Below are positions 11,346 through 15,836 of a stretch of DNA of 64,000 bases, in pieces. A program made the position numbers and the translations under genes. This DNA is from Microbispora catharanthi. GTDB taxonomy: Bacteria; Actinomycetota; Actinomycetes; Streptosporangiales; Streptosporangiaceae. Position 1 is the stretch's first letter. The number at the start of each line of letters is the position of its first letter. A model generated the notes under the pieces. It was not told where the DNA came from. It saw only the letters and a program-made list of their open reading frames with translations, and made no database searches. The DNA lies in assembly GCF_006334915.2 (NCBI RefSeq), contig NZ_VDMA02000006.1, forward strand, positions 124,001 to 188,000, in the 5' to 3' direction.

Positions 11346-11399
11346 CCTGTCCCGCCGGCTGGTGCTGGCGCGTCTCAGGGGTGACCGGGGCGGGACAGG
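11346..11399. terminator. Inverted repeat between MarR and the peptide locus
   Basis: CCTGTCCCGCC (11346-11356) and GGCGGGACAGG (11389-11399) are perfect 11-bp complements between the convergent marR and DUF6879 genes. The right arm lies inside the last codons of the DUF6879 gene. The left arm belongs to a 16-bp sequence shared with the MFS 3' end. Confidence 0.6.
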
Positions 11400-12004
11400 A
11401 TCCGCCGGGCGACCGGCGGCGGCAGGTGCGCCACCTCGCGGTCGTGGAAGGCCACCATGTCCTCGGCGTCGGCGTACAGTTCGGCGACGGCTCGGGCGCA
11501 GCCCTCGACGACCCGGGTGTCCGTTATCCGTCGTCCGCCCACGTGGGCGCCGATCTCGTCGTAGAGGACCTCGTACATCAGGTCCCGGTCGAGGATCAGC
11601 AGCTCGGGCAGCGGCGCGCGGCTCTCCAAGTGGCGTACGGACCGGGCGTGCAGCGCCCGTGCCCGCTCGCCCGCCCGCGTGCGCGCCGCGAGCAGGACGA
11701 TCTCCCACTGCAGGTAGGGCGTCGGCGGCATCTCGACGATCCGCAGCCGGCGCAGCTCCGCCCGGGGCGGCAGGTCGTCGGCGAAGCGCATCTCGTCCAT
11801 CAGCGCGAGCGACCGGTCCCAGTTTCCGCTCATCATGGCGACCCAGCTCGGGGTGTCGGGTTCGTGGAAGTGCTGGGCGCGTTCCAGCTTCCATACCACG
11901 CCCTCGATCCGGCGCAGGTGGTCGTAGAGCTCGGTCCGGTACTCCGCCGCGGGAAGAACCTGTCCCGTGGCCTGTCTGACGTGCTCGAACGCTTCTCCGG
12001 GCAT
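11375..12004 (-). CDS. DUF6879-family protein, second copy
   Basis: A 209-residue protein of the DUF6879 family. It shares with the upstream copy the blocks VVWKLERAQHFHEP, TPYLQWE, LESRAPLPEL and YEVLYDEIGA. Its function is unknown; in many actinomycetes the family sits beside XRE regulators, but here it follows a small peptide gene. The ATG at 12004 has AAGGAG six bases upstream. It is the last gene of the minus-strand peptide locus. There is no signal peptide or membrane segment, so it should be cytosolic. The several conserved His and Glu residues make metal or ligand binding possible but unproven. Confidence 0.8.
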   Translation of the reverse strand: MPGEAFEHVRQATGQVLPAAEYRTELYDHLRRIEGVVWKLERAQHFHEPDTPSWVAMMSGNWDRSLALMDEMRFADDLPPRAELRRLRIVEMPPTPYLQWEIVLLAARTRAGERARALHARSVRHLESRAPLPELLILDRDLMYEVLYDEIGAHVGGRRITDTRVVEGCARAVAELYADAEDMVAFHDREVAHLPPPVARRILSRPGHP

Positions 12005-12108
12005 GAAGTCTCCTTCGGCCGAAGCCGAATCGCTGGTCGGAGCGCGCCAGGTTCCGGCCCGGATCTGGAAACGTGGCGCGCGTGGGTCTTCCGCGGACGT
12101 CCGGTGGA

Positions 12109-12237
12109 TCAGTTCCCCGTCGAGTTGCTGCACACGGCCGTCTCCGTCGCGTCCAGCAGCCTGATCCTGATCTGCCTCGTCCCCGCCGTTCCTTCGGTCT
12201 CCTGCACCACCTCGGGTTCTGGCTCGGCCGGCTTCAT
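12109..12237 (-). CDS. Candidate RiPP precursor peptide 2
   Basis: A 42-codon gene. The ATG at 12237 is preceded by GGAGGG four bases upstream, a strong ribosome binding site. The N-terminal half is acidic and Pro-rich (MKPAEPEPEVV). The middle holds IRIRLLDATETA and the tail is VCSNSTGN, with one Cys and a C-terminal Asn. The middle aligns with precursor 1 (IAIRRLDKIETT), giving IxIRxLDxxET as a likely leader recognition motif. It lies between the two DUF6879 genes, 80 bp after one and 104 bp before the other. The match to the other tiny gene and the Shine-Dalgarno are direct observations; modification of the tail is inference. Confidence 0.75.
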   Translation of the reverse strand: MKPAEPEPEVVQETEGTAGTRQIRIRLLDATETAVCSNSTGN

Positions 12238-12317
12238 CTCACCCTCCGTTCGTCGGCGTGGCCGCAAACTCTCCCCCGAGGGCGACATGTCGATCGTTGG
12301 CCGCTCCCGATCCGGGG

Positions 12318-12956
12318 TCAAGGCCCAATCTGGGCGGGCTTGTCCGACAGGCCGGGCGGAGGCGGCAGCGGGGCCACCTCACGCTCGAAGAACGGCAGCA
12401 GGTCCTCGCCCTCGCCGTACAGGGAGACCAGGGCGGACAGGCAGGGTGAGACGACGCCGGGATCGGTGATCCGGCGGGCGCCGACGGCGGCCCCGATCTC
12501 GTCGTAGCGGACCTCGTACAGCAGGCCCGGGCCGAAGACCACCAGTTCGGGCAGCGGCGCCCGGGTCTCCAGCGGTGCGACCGCCGCAGCCCCGATCACC
12601 CTGATCTCCTCGCCCGCCGCCACCCGCACGGCGAAGATCTGCGCCTCCCACTGCAGGTAAGGGGTCAGGGGCAGCTCGACGACGCGCAGCCGCCGGAACG
12701 GGGCCCGCTCGCGGTACATCGCGGTCAGCGGGGCCCGCATCTCCTCGATGAGCTCGACGGCCAGCGCCCAGTCGCCCGCGTCGGCGGCCCGCCAGCTCGG
12801 CACGGCCGGCTCGTGGAAGTGCTGGGCGCGCTCCAGCTTCCACACCACCCCCGCCGCGTCGCGGTAGACCTCCTCGAACTCGGCCTGGTAGGCGTCCAAT
12901 CCGAGGAACTCGCCGTCGGCGGCCCTGACGTCATCGAACACGTCGCTCGGGATCAC
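12318..12956 (-). CDS. DUF6879-family protein, first copy
   Basis: A 212-residue paralogue of the protein at 11375-12004, sharing VVWKLERAQHFHEP, LTPYLQWEAQ, LETRAPLPELV and YEVRYDEIGA. The GTG start at 12956 follows GAGGAGGAACC and overlaps the last 26 bases of the M50 peptidase gene, so the two are co-transcribed. The function is unknown. The pairing of each DUF6879 copy with a nearby peptide gene hints at a role in peptide binding, maturation or immunity, but sequence alone does not settle this. Confidence 0.8.
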   Translation of the reverse strand: MIPSDVFDDVRAADGEFLGLDAYQAEFEEVYRDAAGVVWKLERAQHFHEPAVPSWRAADAGDWALAVELIEEMRAPLTAMYRERAPFRRLRVVELPLTPYLQWEAQIFAVRVAAGEEIRVIGAAAVAPLETRAPLPELVVFGPGLLYEVRYDEIGAAVGARRITDPGVVSPCLSALVSLYGEGEDLLPFFEREVAPLPPPPGLSDKPAQIGP

Positions 12957-14145
12957 GGTTCCTCCTCAGCAGTCCGGCGGCACGGCGCGCCTTCGGGCCG
13001 TGCCTGCGCCACCACGTTGTGGCCCAGAGAACGTGGAACCCGGTGACGACCAGCACCGTGACCACGCCGTCCGCCGCGGCGACCCAGCCGGGCGGGTCGA
13101 GCAGCGCGCGCACGGAACCGGCGAGCAGCCCCAGGGTCGCGGGAATCGTCACCGCGACGGCGAGGCAGAGGCACAGCGCGGTCCCGGCGAGGAGCAGCGC
13201 GGTGTACGCCCGGACCCAGCGGCCCTCGGTCCGCGGCAGCCGGGTGAGCGGATCGGCCGACCGGCGCAGCAAGGCCCGGCGGCACACGTGCGCGGCGTAC
13301 GCGGCGGAGTCGCCGTACAGGTTCCGGCAGCCCGTCACGTCCTGCAGGACGAAGTAGAGATCGGTGCGCATGAACACCAGGAACTGGGCCGACAGCATGA
13401 GCAGCGCCGTCATCGCGACGACGGACAGGGCCGGTCGCGGGCCGGCCGGCACGGTCAGCAGGAGGCAGACCGCGCACACGGCGGCGTCCAGCGCCATGCC
13501 GGAGAGGTAGACCGTCAGCCGGACCCGGCGCTCCGCCAGCCAGATGCCCGACACCTCGGTCTGCGCCGTGAGGAACTGCAGACGGGTGCCGAACCTGATG
13601 CGCCCGGGCACGCCGGCGGCGCGAGCCGTGCACAGGTGGGCCAGCTCGTGCAGGAGGATCAGCAGCCATCCGGCCGCCGTCTGCGCGAGCAGGACCAGCG
13701 TCCCGCGGTCGCTCCAGAGCAGGTCCCGCCAGCCGGGTACGACGGCGGGCCGCAGCACTGCCACCGCCGCCCCGGCCAGGATCACGGCCGCCAGGGCGGC
13801 GTGCAGGAACGGGTTGAGCGTCCACCGCACGTGGCGGGGCAGCAGCCGGGGAAAGGTGGGCGGCGGGGGAGGGGCCGCGGGAACGGGGCATCCGTCGACC
13901 GCCGCTACCAATCCCGCACGGACCAGGCCGTCGACGAACCCGCCCACGTTCACCCGGGTGCCGGTCTCCGCGCCGAGCCGCCGCTCCACCTCGGGGACCG
14001 TCGCCCCCTCCTGGAACAGGCGGATGACCCGCATGCCCTGCGCGGGCACGGCGATGACGTCGCCCGTCTCCACCCGCCCGACGATCCACTCCTCGCGATC
14101 CCGGCGTACGCCGAGGTCGTGCAGGGTGACCCGGGTCGGTGTCAT
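12931..14145 (-). CDS. PqqD-like domain fused to M50-type membrane metalloprotease
   Basis: A 404-residue protein. Residues 1-80 (LHDLGVRRDREEWIVGRVET to GLVRAGLVAA) resemble a PqqD/RRE winged helix, the module that binds RiPP leader peptides. A Pro-rich linker follows, then about six membrane segments with the zinc motif HELAH (in LLHELAHLCTARAAG) and the M50-style region MRTDLYFVLQD, where the Asp could be the third ligand. Related fusions occur in peptide-modification clusters as putative peptide zinc metalloproteases. Its likely job is to cut the leader and release or export the peptide at the membrane. The ATG overlaps the stop of the repeat ORF (ATGA). Confidence 0.85.
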   Translation of the reverse strand: MTPTRVTLHDLGVRRDREEWIVGRVETGDVIAVPAQGMRVIRLFQEGATVPEVERRLGAETGTRVNVGGFVDGLVRAGLVAAVDGCPVPAAPPPPPTFPRLLPRHVRWTLNPFLHAALAAVILAGAAVAVLRPAVVPGWRDLLWSDRGTLVLLAQTAAGWLLILLHELAHLCTARAAGVPGRIRFGTRLQFLTAQTEVSGIWLAERRVRLTVYLSGMALDAAVCAVCLLLTVPAGPRPALSVVAMTALLMLSAQFLVFMRTDLYFVLQDVTGCRNLYGDSAAYAAHVCRRALLRRSADPLTRLPRTEGRWVRAYTALLLAGTALCLCLAVAVTIPATLGLLAGSVRALLDPPGWVAAADGVVTVLVVTGFHVLWATTWWRRHGPKARRAAGLLRRNRDPERRVR

Positions 14146-14423
14146 GACGAGTGGCCCGTGGGGCGCACCGGGGCGGGCGTACGGCCCGCCCCGGTTTCGG
14201 TGGCTGGAAGATCACGCCCTGCTGCGCGCGGCCAGGGCGGCACCTCGCCGCGCATCACCCATGGGGAGCTCCTCGCGGGCACGGACTTTTCGCGGGGCCC
14301 GAAATCGTCGCCCCGCCCGTGGGAATTCCCCGCATGCTCGGAATTCCTGCGGGGCCCGAAACCCCACTCGCGAGAATTCCCCGTAGGCTCGGACTTTCCG
14401 CGGAACCCGGGAAAGGCGCCCAT
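14142..14423 (-). CDS. Repeat-bearing small ORF of unknown status
   Basis: An open frame of 93 codons from the ATG at 14423 (121 codons if a GTG at 14504-14506 is used) ends in an ATGA overlap with the M50 start. It encodes three imperfect repeats of the form GxRx(K/N)S(E/V)(P/H): GFRGKSEPTGNS, GPRRNSEHAGNS and GPREKSVPARSS. The DNA repeat periods, 57 and 51 bases, are both multiples of three. The G/C share at third positions is about 77 percent, lower than in neighbouring genes. It could be a second type of precursor, a small partner protein, or only a structured leader upstream of the M50 gene. Confidence 0.4.
   Translation of the reverse strand: MGAFPGFRGKSEPTGNSREWGFGPRRNSEHAGNSHGRGDDFGPREKSVPARSSPWVMRGEVPPWPRAAGRDLPATETGAGRTPAPVRPTGHSS
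14266..14420. repeat. Three imperfect 51-57 bp direct repeats
   Basis: Copies begin near 14266, 14323 and 14374. The best-conserved parts are GAATTCCCCGCATGCTCGGA (second copy) and GCGGGGCCCGAAA (first and second copies). Each copy contains EcoRI-like GAATTC or related half-palindromes and a GGGGCCC palindrome, so the region may fold strongly. It lies between precursor 1 and the M50 gene. Confidence 0.75.
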
Positions 14424-14520
14424 AGCTCCGCTACGGCCTCCTCCGCCTCGCGGTGCGTCCACCCGGATCCCCGCTCCCGCTCCTGACGGGCAGCATGTGT
14501 CAGGCACTCGCGGGCCGGCC

Positions 14521-14646
14521 TCAGGTGGAGTTCCCCTGACTGAAGGCCGTCGTCTCGATCTTGTCCAGTCTGCGGATAGCGATCTCGGCGGCGACAGGTT
14601 CGGCCGATTCCTCCGGCTGGGTCTGGTTTTGCTCTTGAGGGGTCAT
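14521..14646 (-). CDS. Candidate RiPP precursor peptide 1
   Basis: A 41-codon gene directly downstream of the E1 enzyme gene. The ATG at 14646 has AAGGTG upstream with a short spacer. The N-terminus is Gln/Glu-rich (MTPQEQNQTQPEES), the middle is IAIRRLDKIETT and the tail is AFSQGNST. The middle matches precursor 2 in the pattern IxIRxLDxxET, and both tails are short and rich in Ser, Asn, Gly and Thr. This two-fold occurrence beside an E1 enzyme and a PqqD-peptidase fusion is what marks it as a precursor. Stop codon TGA at 14521-14523. Confidence 0.75.
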   Translation of the reverse strand: MTPQEQNQTQPEESAEPVAAEIAIRRLDKIETTAFSQGNST

Positions 14647-14726
14647 CGAGCACCTTCTGCTGTGGATTGTTGGTGCGGACCTCGCGCGAGAAAACATCTA
14701 AATGTTCGGATGCCGCACATGATCGG

Positions 14727-15836
14727 TCAAGTCCTATTTTGCGACTCGGTCGATTTCCGCTGACTTCCACAGACGGGGCAGTCCGGACGAGGCGGATGCC
14801 GCACCCAGACGTGCTGGTCCGGTGCGATGAGGTTCAATCCGACGACCGTTCCGGTGACAGGCTCGGGCACTCCGGTGATCAGCGAGATCACCGAGTGGGC
14901 GACCAGGTGGCCCGAGACGCCGGCCGAGGCGGCGACCACGCCCGGTCCTCCGAGGTCCACCGGAAGACCCGGCCTGCGGCGGCGCGCCTCGCCCGCGGCC
15001 AGGCACTCGTAGCAGGCGCCCCGCCCGGGGGCGAAGGCGCCCACGGTCACGAGGGGACCGTTGTAGCCTCCGCCGACCCACGGCACGCCGGCCCGCGCGC
15101 AGATCCGGTTGGCCCAGATCCGGATGCCGGGCTCCCTCGGCTCGTCGGCGCACAGCGCGAGGACGTCGGCGTCCGCCACCACGGACAGCAGGTCCCCCTC
15201 GCTGCCGATCGCCCGCCGCTCGCCGGTGACCTCGATGTCGGAGTTGAGCCGGCGCAACCTGCCGACGGCCGCGTCCACCTTGGCGCGGCCGAGGTCGTCC
15301 TCCGTGTAAAGGACCTGCCGGTTCAGGTTCGACAGTTCCACCACGTCGGCGTCGACGCAGTGCAGGCGACCGACGCCGGAGGCGGCGAGCGCCCACGCGG
15401 CGTGGCTCCCCGTGCCGCCGAGGCCCAGCACCACGACCCGGGCGGTCCGCAGCCGGATTTGCGCATCCCACCCTTGCCGTCCCGGCGAGAGGTCGACCTG
15501 ATGGAAGAACGCCTGGCTCCTGTCGTACCGCTCGCGCTCCCGTTCGCTGAGCTCCCCCGGTATCGGGGCCGAGGCGTCCTCCACATGTCCCGACGCGATG
15601 AGGGCGGCGACGATCCGCGATGCCTGGGGCGCGGAAACGCCGGGCAGCCGCCGGCACACGGCCTCCGCGACGTCGGCGGGAGACCGGGTGCCGTCCATCA
15701 GGGTGAGCGCGGCCCACGCGCCGCCCGTCGGATCGCTGATCTCGGTGGCCAGCCCGTAGATCTCGCCTCCGATGCGCACCGTTCCGTCATCGAAGCGGTG
15801 CGGCTCGTGCTTCCGCTTGACCCGTGGCAACAGCAC
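14727..15836 (-). CDS. ThiF/MccB-like E1 adenylyltransferase with N-terminal RRE-like clamp
   Basis: A 369-residue E1-like enzyme. Residues 1-95 (LLPRVKRKHEPHRFDDG to IASGHVEDAS) resemble the winged-helix peptide clamp of MccB and PaaA. The ATP-binding Rossmann motif is VVVLGLGGTGSHAAWALA, followed by VELSNLNRQVLYTEDDLG, and zinc-binding Cys pairs are in CYEC and CPVC. MccB adenylates the terminal Asn of microcin C, and PaaA remodels pantocin A, so this enzyme should activate a carboxylate of the neighbouring peptides by adenylation. I chose the GTG at 15836, preceded by GAGGAGGAG; a frame from a TTG at 15911 is possible. The length fits MccB (about 350). Confidence 0.85.
   Translation of the reverse strand: MLLPRVKRKHEPHRFDDGTVRIGGEIYGLATEISDPTGGAWAALTLMDGTRSPADVAEAVCRRLPGVSAPQASRIVAALIASGHVEDASAPIPGELSERERERYDRSQAFFHQVDLSPGRQGWDAQIRLRTARVVVLGLGGTGSHAAWALAASGVGRLHCVDADVVELSNLNRQVLYTEDDLGRAKVDAAVGRLRRLNSDIEVTGERRAIGSEGDLLSVVADADVLALCADEPREPGIRIWANRICARAGVPWVGGGYNGPLVTVGAFAPGRGACYECLAAGEARRRRPGLPVDLGGPGVVAASAGVSGHLVAHSVISLITGVPEPVTGTVVGLNLIAPDQHVWVRHPPRPDCPVCGSQRKSTESQNRT

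Follow-up and report, generated by a model that had tools for sequence, protein, structure and literature searches.

Within a 64,000-nucleotide stretch of the Microbispora catharanthi genome (contig NZ_VDMA02000006.1, positions 124,001 to 188,000; hereafter the window), we analysed a group of minus-strand genes that an earlier reading of the sequence, here called the original prediction, had proposed to be a pathway for a ribosomally synthesized and post-translationally modified peptide (RiPP). In the order of transcription, these genes encode an E1/ThiF-like adenylyltransferase (14727..15836; 369 amino acids from a GTG start), a peptide of 41 codons (14521..14646), a HELAH-containing membrane protein of the M50 metalloprotease type (12931..14145; 404 amino acids with six hydrophobic segments), a DUF6879 protein (12318..12956; 212 amino acids), a peptide of 42 codons (12109..12237) and a second DUF6879 protein (11375..12004; about 209 amino acids from the likely ATG, in a frame open to 12133). 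All parts of the predicted system were thus found in their places on the minus strand. The prediction had also described them as overlapping or separated by short gaps. They do share a single strand, the M50 gene and the gene for DUF6879 protein 1 overlap by 26 bases, and the peptide 1 gene starts 80 bases past the E1 stop, but 375 bases separate peptide 1 from the protease gene, a gap that cannot be called short. This gap contains three imperfect 48-base direct repeats (14254-14409), the outer copies of which are 65% and 77% identical to the middle copy. A purine-rich stretch precedes the ATG of both peptide genes (AGAAGG for peptide 1, GGAGGG for peptide 2).

The 9.25 Mb genome of M. catharanthi contains two further E1 copies, which are 66% and 57% identical to the window E1. 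One of these copies (L036) is accompanied by a peptide gene, a DUF6879 gene and an M50 gene, and the other (L037) is solitary. The closest named relatives of the window E1 are those of Microbispora siamensis (96% identity), M. rosea (93%) and M. hainanensis (92%).

A family of small peptides encoded beside E1 genes

Both window peptides belong to one family, which consists of the motif I-x-[IV]-R-x-L-[DE]-x-x-E-T and a variable tail. Peptide 1 carries the motif as IAIRRLDKIETT with the tail AFSQGNST (motif score 45.4; E 1.5e-10 with the peptide profile in its own genome), and peptide 2 carries it as IRIRLLDATETA with the tail VCSNSTGN (31.5; E 1.3e-8). We collected the surroundings of E1 genes as 77 loci, among them the window and at least two loci that were fetched twice. 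In 67 of the 77, a small frame ends in the motif and usually 6-11 further residues. With a 12-position motif matrix built from these same loci, the best short-tailed frame on the forward strand scored 17.9 to 50.8 in each of the 67; background scores above 12 arose once on the reverse strands of all 77 loci (15.9) and in four long frames on the forward strands (14.0-14.4).

Ten loci have no motif peptide (L023, L024, L076, L077, L037, L094, L099, L100, L101 and L105). L023 has a possible degenerate peptide upstream, which we did not count, and L024, whose E1 frame is broken, was scored as a miss. L076 and L077 retain E1 and neighbours that resemble the ones at L036, but have no peptide, DUF6879 or M50 gene. 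The other six E1 genes, from six Microbispora genomes, group together in one clade and stand alone: in the fetched stretch around each, neither a peptide gene nor an M50 or DUF6879 gene was found. These enzymes may act on peptides encoded elsewhere.

Among 82 distinct peptides of the family, motif position 4 is Arg in 77 and Lys in 5, position 6 is Leu in 81, position 10 is Glu in 79, and position 11 is Thr in 74, Cys in 3 and Ser in 1. The exceptions at position 11 are Pro in two peptides, Met in one, and Lys in a repeat-bearing peptide that is read out of register. Counted from the first motif residue to the stop, 81 of the 82 measure 18-23 residues, and there are 52 different tails. The C-terminal residue is Asn in 44 peptides, Gly in 18, Ser in 8, Thr in 6 (the residue at the end of window peptide 1) and another residue in 6. 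In an E1 tree of 72 rows from the 77 loci, tails mostly track the enzyme: INRGGxSG, KxREGSG, SNSVGN, CSNSTGN and SGNSNS each occur in one clade, and GLREGG is found in two subclades. A distant E1 clade (13 loci, L108-L120) has the peptide upstream of E1, followed by M50, with other neighbours that mostly differ, and its peptides end in Gly at all 13 loci. Judging by conservation, which is not proof, the motif-bearing part and the tail probably behave like the leader and core of a RiPP precursor.

Codon changes differ among peptide groups. The peptide 1 tail, compared in four Microbispora sequences, has 6 synonymous and 0 nonsynonymous changes in 48 pairwise codons. In the peptide-2 group, which comprises 12 sequences and includes some of Planotetraspora-type loci, the tail has 48 synonymous versus 20 nonsynonymous changes and the motif 72 versus 183, and the tail of the C13 group has 7 versus 30. 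Given this mixture, we do not claim that tail and motif are under uniform purifying selection. Searches of Pfam and NCBIfam with the window peptides, and of NCBIfam with 29 trimmed peptides, returned no credible family; a weak match to AGAO-like_N2 (E 0.053) was taken as chance. Peptide start codons were set by rule, and several leader lengths are probably wrong. In L107 and L168, some precursors are barely longer than motif plus tail. L107 contains four consecutive precursor genes about 1.2-1.7 kb past the E1 stop, all with ECT instead of ETT; one of them (IEIRKLDKLDKLDKLECT) has an internal LDK repeat and was counted in a register that places its ECT in the tail. L168 encodes a more divergent pair of E1 and M50, and its precursor of about 20 residues ends in Cys (ETTGNSNSC), so it is possibly a thiolactone case.

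The peptide and E1 also occur together across genomes. In an order-level sample of 150 genomes, with thresholds of E <=1e-60 for E1 and E <=1e-3 for the peptide, 46 genomes have E1, of which 43 encode the peptide, and the peptide was found in 0 of the 104 E1-negative genomes. The Fisher p-value of this association (2e-34) is only a guide because the sampled genomes are related. Within these genomes, a peptide lies within 4 kb at 54 of 65 E1 places, and 60 of 70 peptide matches are near an E1. A class-wide search with the peptide matched 13 of 394 genomes at E <=0.01. In one genome that was found by the peptide alone (G787), both peptides adjoin an E1 gene on the opposite strand, one of them with M50. 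The weakest class-wide match (G172) lies within a long frame with no E1 near it and was rejected. E1 itself was found at E <=1e-50 in 2 of 396 genomes of a phylum-wide sample, one being the M. catharanthi genome. Eleven distant E1 relatives (L025-L035, non-actinobacterial by their titles) have no M50, DUF6879 or motif peptide, and were therefore taken to lie outside the family.

Adenylating enzyme, protease and DUF6879 proteins

The window E1 matches the Pfam ThiF domain (E 9.7e-47). The adenosine triphosphate (ATP) site consists of GxGGTG at residues 138-143, R173, Q174, K186 and D231, and G138, G140, G141, G143 and the latter four residues are invariant in all 41 aligned sequences (from 59 non-redundant ones), as are four Cys residues (275, 278, 353 and 356). 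Residues 1-92, approximately, resemble a RiPP recognition element (RRE): at E <=1, PqqD was matched by 20 of the 41 family members (best 5.8e-5) and PaaA-like_N by 13 (best 5e-4), and the match of the window E1 alone to PqqD is not significant (E 0.19; 12.5 bits versus a cut-off of 23.4). In the structural model, this region has strands at 19-22 and 30-34, helices at 39-46, 53-63 and 69-81, and a strand at 85-87. MccB is the best sequence relative of E1 in the PDB, and the model matches MccB across 321-335 residues. More residues align with MccB and PaaA than the ThiF part alone contains, so that the N-terminal domain is partly covered, and the sequence match to PaaA extends over this domain too; most other structural matches span only the ThiF part. 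The E1 is thus a ThiF-fold adenylyltransferase with its ATP-site residues in place and, by profiles and predicted fold, the N-terminal RRE or clamp domain of ThiF-like RiPP enzymes.

Matches of the ThiF domain to PADLOC E1-E2 models (31 families at E <=0.01, best 6.5e-17) could instead suggest that the E1 serves a conjugation or defence system in which the peptides are regulators, and that no natural product is made. However, the 25 PADLOC matches listed all fall within residues 111-293, the generic ThiF domain, and the other three proteins have no PADLOC match. No E2 or JAB partner was noticed, although no search was aimed at either, and the nearest solved relatives that share the N-terminal domain are RiPP enzymes. 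We therefore regard a defence role as very improbable.

The similarity to MccB raises a further alternative, in which the product is a peptide nucleotide of the microcin C type: a C-terminal Asn would be adenylated by the E1, and a nucleotide in phosphoramidate linkage would stay on it. The 44 peptides with a C-terminal Asn would suit this chemistry, SNSVGN and SGNSN being examples of their tails. However, the N-P bond of the MccB product sits at the C-terminal Asn (PMC7136475). Since the other 38 of 82 peptides end otherwise, including the Thr-ended window peptide 1 and the Gly-ended peptides of all 13 loci in the distant clade, a phosphoramidate chemistry that depends on Asn cannot be the reaction of the whole family, and we consider this reading quite improbable.

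The protease carries HELAH at residues 166-170. By itself it matches Pfam Peptidase_M50 weakly (E 0.013, below the cut-off), and all 30 aligned relatives (from 35 non-redundant sequences) match that family at E <=1 (best 6.3e-5). The window protein alone has no PqqD match, and no NCBIfam match at E <=1. Across the family, the N-terminus (about residues 5-90 of the window protein) does resemble an RRE: PqqD was matched by 9 of the 30 relatives at E <=1 (best 2.4e-6) and by 5 of 12 M50 N-termini (best 9.9e-8), and a profile of these 12 N-termini, compared with solved structures, matched TbiB1 (E 0.0015) and TfuB1 (E 0.24), both of them lasso RREs. When aligned with hhalign, the N-terminal profiles of E1 and M50 are collinear over 80 columns (E 6.4e-5, probability 36%), and two mismatched controls gave probabilities of 0.06% and 0.03%; this likeness is suggestive, not strong. 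NCBIfam models matched by the 30 relatives include daptide_HExxH (11 of 30, best 2.6e-10), YydH/LiaK (8 of 30, best 0.029) and lasso_PqqD_Strm (6 of 30, best 0.0014), and the five M50 proteins that were scored against NCBIfam cut-offs were all below them.

The two DUF6879 proteins are 50% identical to one another and match the Pfam family with 113.3 bits (protein 1) and 102.5 bits (protein 2; cut-off 23.9). An AlphaFold 2 model of protein 1, with a mean predicted local distance difference test score of 94.2, has structural matches of the phospholipase D (PLD)-like type. The HKD signature was not found, as none of the columns that are invariant, or nearly so, in an alignment of 17 DUF6879 sequences (from 30 non-redundant ones) holds a His, and a sequence-based comparison of DUF6879 with solved structures gave no match. 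DUF6879 is present in 36 of the 77 loci. It is absent from the other 41, and in seven further loci (L158-L164) a motif peptide stands directly before a DUF6879 gene although about 6 kb of sequence there contains no E1. We therefore regard DUF6879 as accessory and probably as a partner of particular precursors. Six of these seven peptides are of the CSNSTGN type, as is window peptide 2.

Several claims of the original prediction can be judged from these data. The proposed E1-type adenylating enzyme with an RRE-like clamp is supported by the ThiF, PqqD and PaaA-like_N matches and by the fold match to MccB and PaaA. The PqqD-like N-terminus assigned to the protease holds across its family, through PqqD, TbiB1 and TfuB1, but PqqD likeness is not significant in either the window E1 or the window M50 protein alone. 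On the other hand, the M50 gene is not a fixed part of the set, as it is present in 39 of the 77 loci and missing from 38, and the two DUF6879 genes do not belong to the core, since they are so often absent and also pair with peptides away from any E1 that we found. The prediction had also seen no radical SAM enzyme, YcaO protein or lanthipeptide synthetase, although no search across the entire window was aimed at these.

A proposed RiPP pathway and its possible chemistry

We conclude, with a probability of roughly 80%, that the E1, M50 and peptide genes form a RiPP pathway of the ThiF/E1 kind with both peptides as precursors. Our confidence is high for a RiPP-type pathway and low for any particular product. 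In the proposed pathway, the peptides of 41 and 42 residues would be the precursors, with the tail after the motif as core. The strand-like motif would dock on two domains, the RRE of E1 and its RRE-like counterpart in the protease, as predicted fold and conservation suggest. The remaining steps are proposed by analogy with MccB, PaaA, GrcB, EnfB and IndF. The tail would reach the active site of E1, which with ATP would adenylate a carboxylate of the core, most likely at its C-terminus; attack by a nucleophile would then close a ring or add a group. The membrane protease, bound through its own RRE-like domain, would remove the leader and may aid export; transporter genes of the major facilitator superfamily (MFS) are adjacent in some loci. 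The genes, the motif family with its linkage to E1, the predicted folds and the ATP-site residues are what the analysis shows; docking, adenylation and cleavage we infer, and the activated carboxylate and the nucleophile are guesses, for which the features common to the peptides offer three candidates: the C-terminal carboxylate, Glu10 and Thr/Ser/Cys11.

There are, however, observations that weigh against this pathway. The figure of 0 of 104 E1-negative genomes hinges on the cut-off: at E <=1, the peptide matches 56 of the 150 genomes, 11 of which are E1-negative (best 0.0065). Among the 65 E1 places, 11 are without a peptide at E <=1e-3; three of these have a degenerate peptide (L093, L095 and L098), two are L076 and L077 of Microbispora, although close relatives of both have one, and six are the solitary Microbispora E1 genes with no peptide in reach. 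One genome (G698) has a peptide match of E 3.3e-6 and no such E1; its locus L183 encodes a stand-alone motif peptide, IVIRPLDKKETTGDSNSQGA. The M50 gene is missing from 38 loci, and the non-RiPP protease RseP is also matched by 19 of the 30 M50 relatives (best 0.0013). The tails are too varied for any universal nucleophile within them. Moreover, the peptide profile was itself derived from E1-linked peptides, and we therefore examined loci outside the training set of the motif. These were three plasmid loci (L170-L172, from Streptomyces, Actinacidiphila and Nocardia), the first three of ten listed among 358 matching records, the list's Nonomuraea entry (H4) not being included. All three have E1, M50 and one or two motif peptides. 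The peptide genes are absent from the gene tables of the three records, which are incomplete by their own description, and the pathway is thus easily missed. On these large plasmids, the tails contain Cys (AVCHEDVPCS, AQSCPRCA, NSPCANAS and GLPCSGNGAS).

A conserved tiny-peptide family tied to E1, which the original prediction had anticipated, is therefore borne out by 43 of 46 genomes with E1 versus 0 of 104 without it, and by three of three plasmid loci. The prediction had named two outcomes that would refute it, namely homologous loci lacking a motif peptide and N-termini without an RRE-like fold. Neither was observed: the peptide is present at most of the homologous loci, and the N-termini of both proteins are RRE-like, that of the protease less clearly.

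As to the bond that E1 might form, a macrolactone, macrothiolactone or other ring from the C-terminal carboxylate to the Thr, Ser or Cys at position 11, enclosing about 8-13 residues in the manner of an autoinducer, is possible but doubtful. It is consistent with the residues found at position 11 and their near-fixed distance to the C-terminus, and with Gly-ended tails such as GLREGG, ALREGG and MLRQFG, which offer a hydroxyl or thiol only in ETT; furthermore, the ThiF-like IndF and EnfB join the C-terminus to an internal nucleophile (PMC12150305, PMC12250964). Against it, the four peptides with Pro, Met or Lys (the last out of register) at position 11 have no such nucleophile there, and Thr11 might just as well serve as a protease signal or a leader signal. 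We regard as unlikely that the activated carboxylate is instead the near-invariant Glu10, joined to a tail residue. This Glu borders the tail in 79 of 82 peptides, and GrcB forms its thiolactone through a side-chain Glu, linking Glu35 to Cys39 (PMC12250964), but the closely related L093 and L098 have GPT for ETT with the rest kept, and the Glu may simply be part of the recognition motif. Finally, the peptide could be a pearlin-like scaffold, to whose C-terminal residue E1 adds a small group before M50 trims off one to a few residues that carry the modification. The M50 proteases TglG and TmoG cut a C-terminal modified residue from their peptides (PMC10885120), and the present tails are short and mostly hydrophilic. 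However, the tails vary more than a one-residue carrier requires, and in the neighbouring genes we noticed no peptidyl aminoacyl-tRNA ligase, although no search was aimed at one; we think a scaffold role improbable.

A broader proposal, which we advance tentatively and with less than even confidence, is that these loci represent a new ThiF-made RiPP family, mainly of Streptosporangiaceae, in which E1 and a membrane protease both recognise the same motif and E1 forms a linkage so far not known from ThiF-like enzymes, such as a macrolactone between the C-terminus and the conserved Thr/Ser/Cys. Free-standing pairs of precursor and DUF6879 would then be modified in trans, one enzyme serving several scattered precursors. 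The gene set, which occurs in a soil-type actinobacterium, many relatives and a small number of plasmids, appears to be a pathway not described before, in which an enzyme that uses ATP modifies tiny gene-encoded peptides. It is compact, with a small peptide, a soluble enzyme and often a protease, and its 52 tails on a near-constant motif suit in vitro tests and peptide engineering. One common step, the adenylation of a carboxylate, underlies the very different bonds made by ThiF-like enzymes.

Comparison with known ThiF-like systems

In comparison with the MccB system for microcin C, the present precursors have a recognition motif of their own, separate and conserved, and vary widely in their last residue, and 39 of the 77 loci include a linked membrane M50 protease. 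The core of pantocin A, the product of the PaaA system, is of the EEN type, and EEN occurs in none of the 52 tails. As in other ThiF-like RiPP pathways, the E1 has a linked precursor with conserved leader-like and variable core-like parts, present at 54 of 65 E1 places. Since the ThiF-like RiPP pathways of MccB, PaaA, GrcB, EnfB and IndF are already known (PMC12250964, PMC12150305), the claim of the original prediction that the system fits no RiPP class was too strong.

The set resembles IndF/IndA, EnfB/EnfA and GrcB, which are likewise small clusters of a precursor and an RRE-ThiF-like enzyme, with adenylation of a carboxylate in those systems; their products are an indolylamide, enterofaecin and a thiolactone, respectively (PMC12150305, PMC12250964). 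The E1 residues R173, K186 and D231 are spaced as are R167, K180 and D225 of EnfB (PMC12250964), a likeness of spacing only, in unaligned sequences. However, these systems are described from streptococci and enterococci and have another precursor motif. The IndA core EDTTNWYFI is also released by a metalloprotease (PMC12150305), but that protease, IndP, belongs to M16, not M50. The present protease is like the M50 metalloproteases of RiPP pathways (daptide HExxH, YydH/LiaK, EpeP and TglG) in its membrane HExxH and its NCBIfam matches, but it falls far below curated cut-offs where these are shown (for the daptide metalloprotease model NF041824, L109 reaches 25.9 bits versus 300), and it differs in its RRE-like N-terminus and its linkage to E1.

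Judged by titles and abstracts, the literature that we searched contains no account of this E1, M50 and peptide set, and searches for 'DUF6879' or the motif strings found nothing. A RefSeq-wide network covers 27,400 RRE-ThiF fusions, with further clusters in its supplement (PMC12150305), and the present E1s may therefore already sit in it unnamed. Two articles state that many pathways of ThiF-like enzymes are still undiscovered (PMC12250964, PMC12150305). The set belongs to the ThiF-like RiPP pathways and is distinct from those described in the articles cited here in its precursor motif, its protease and its hosts.

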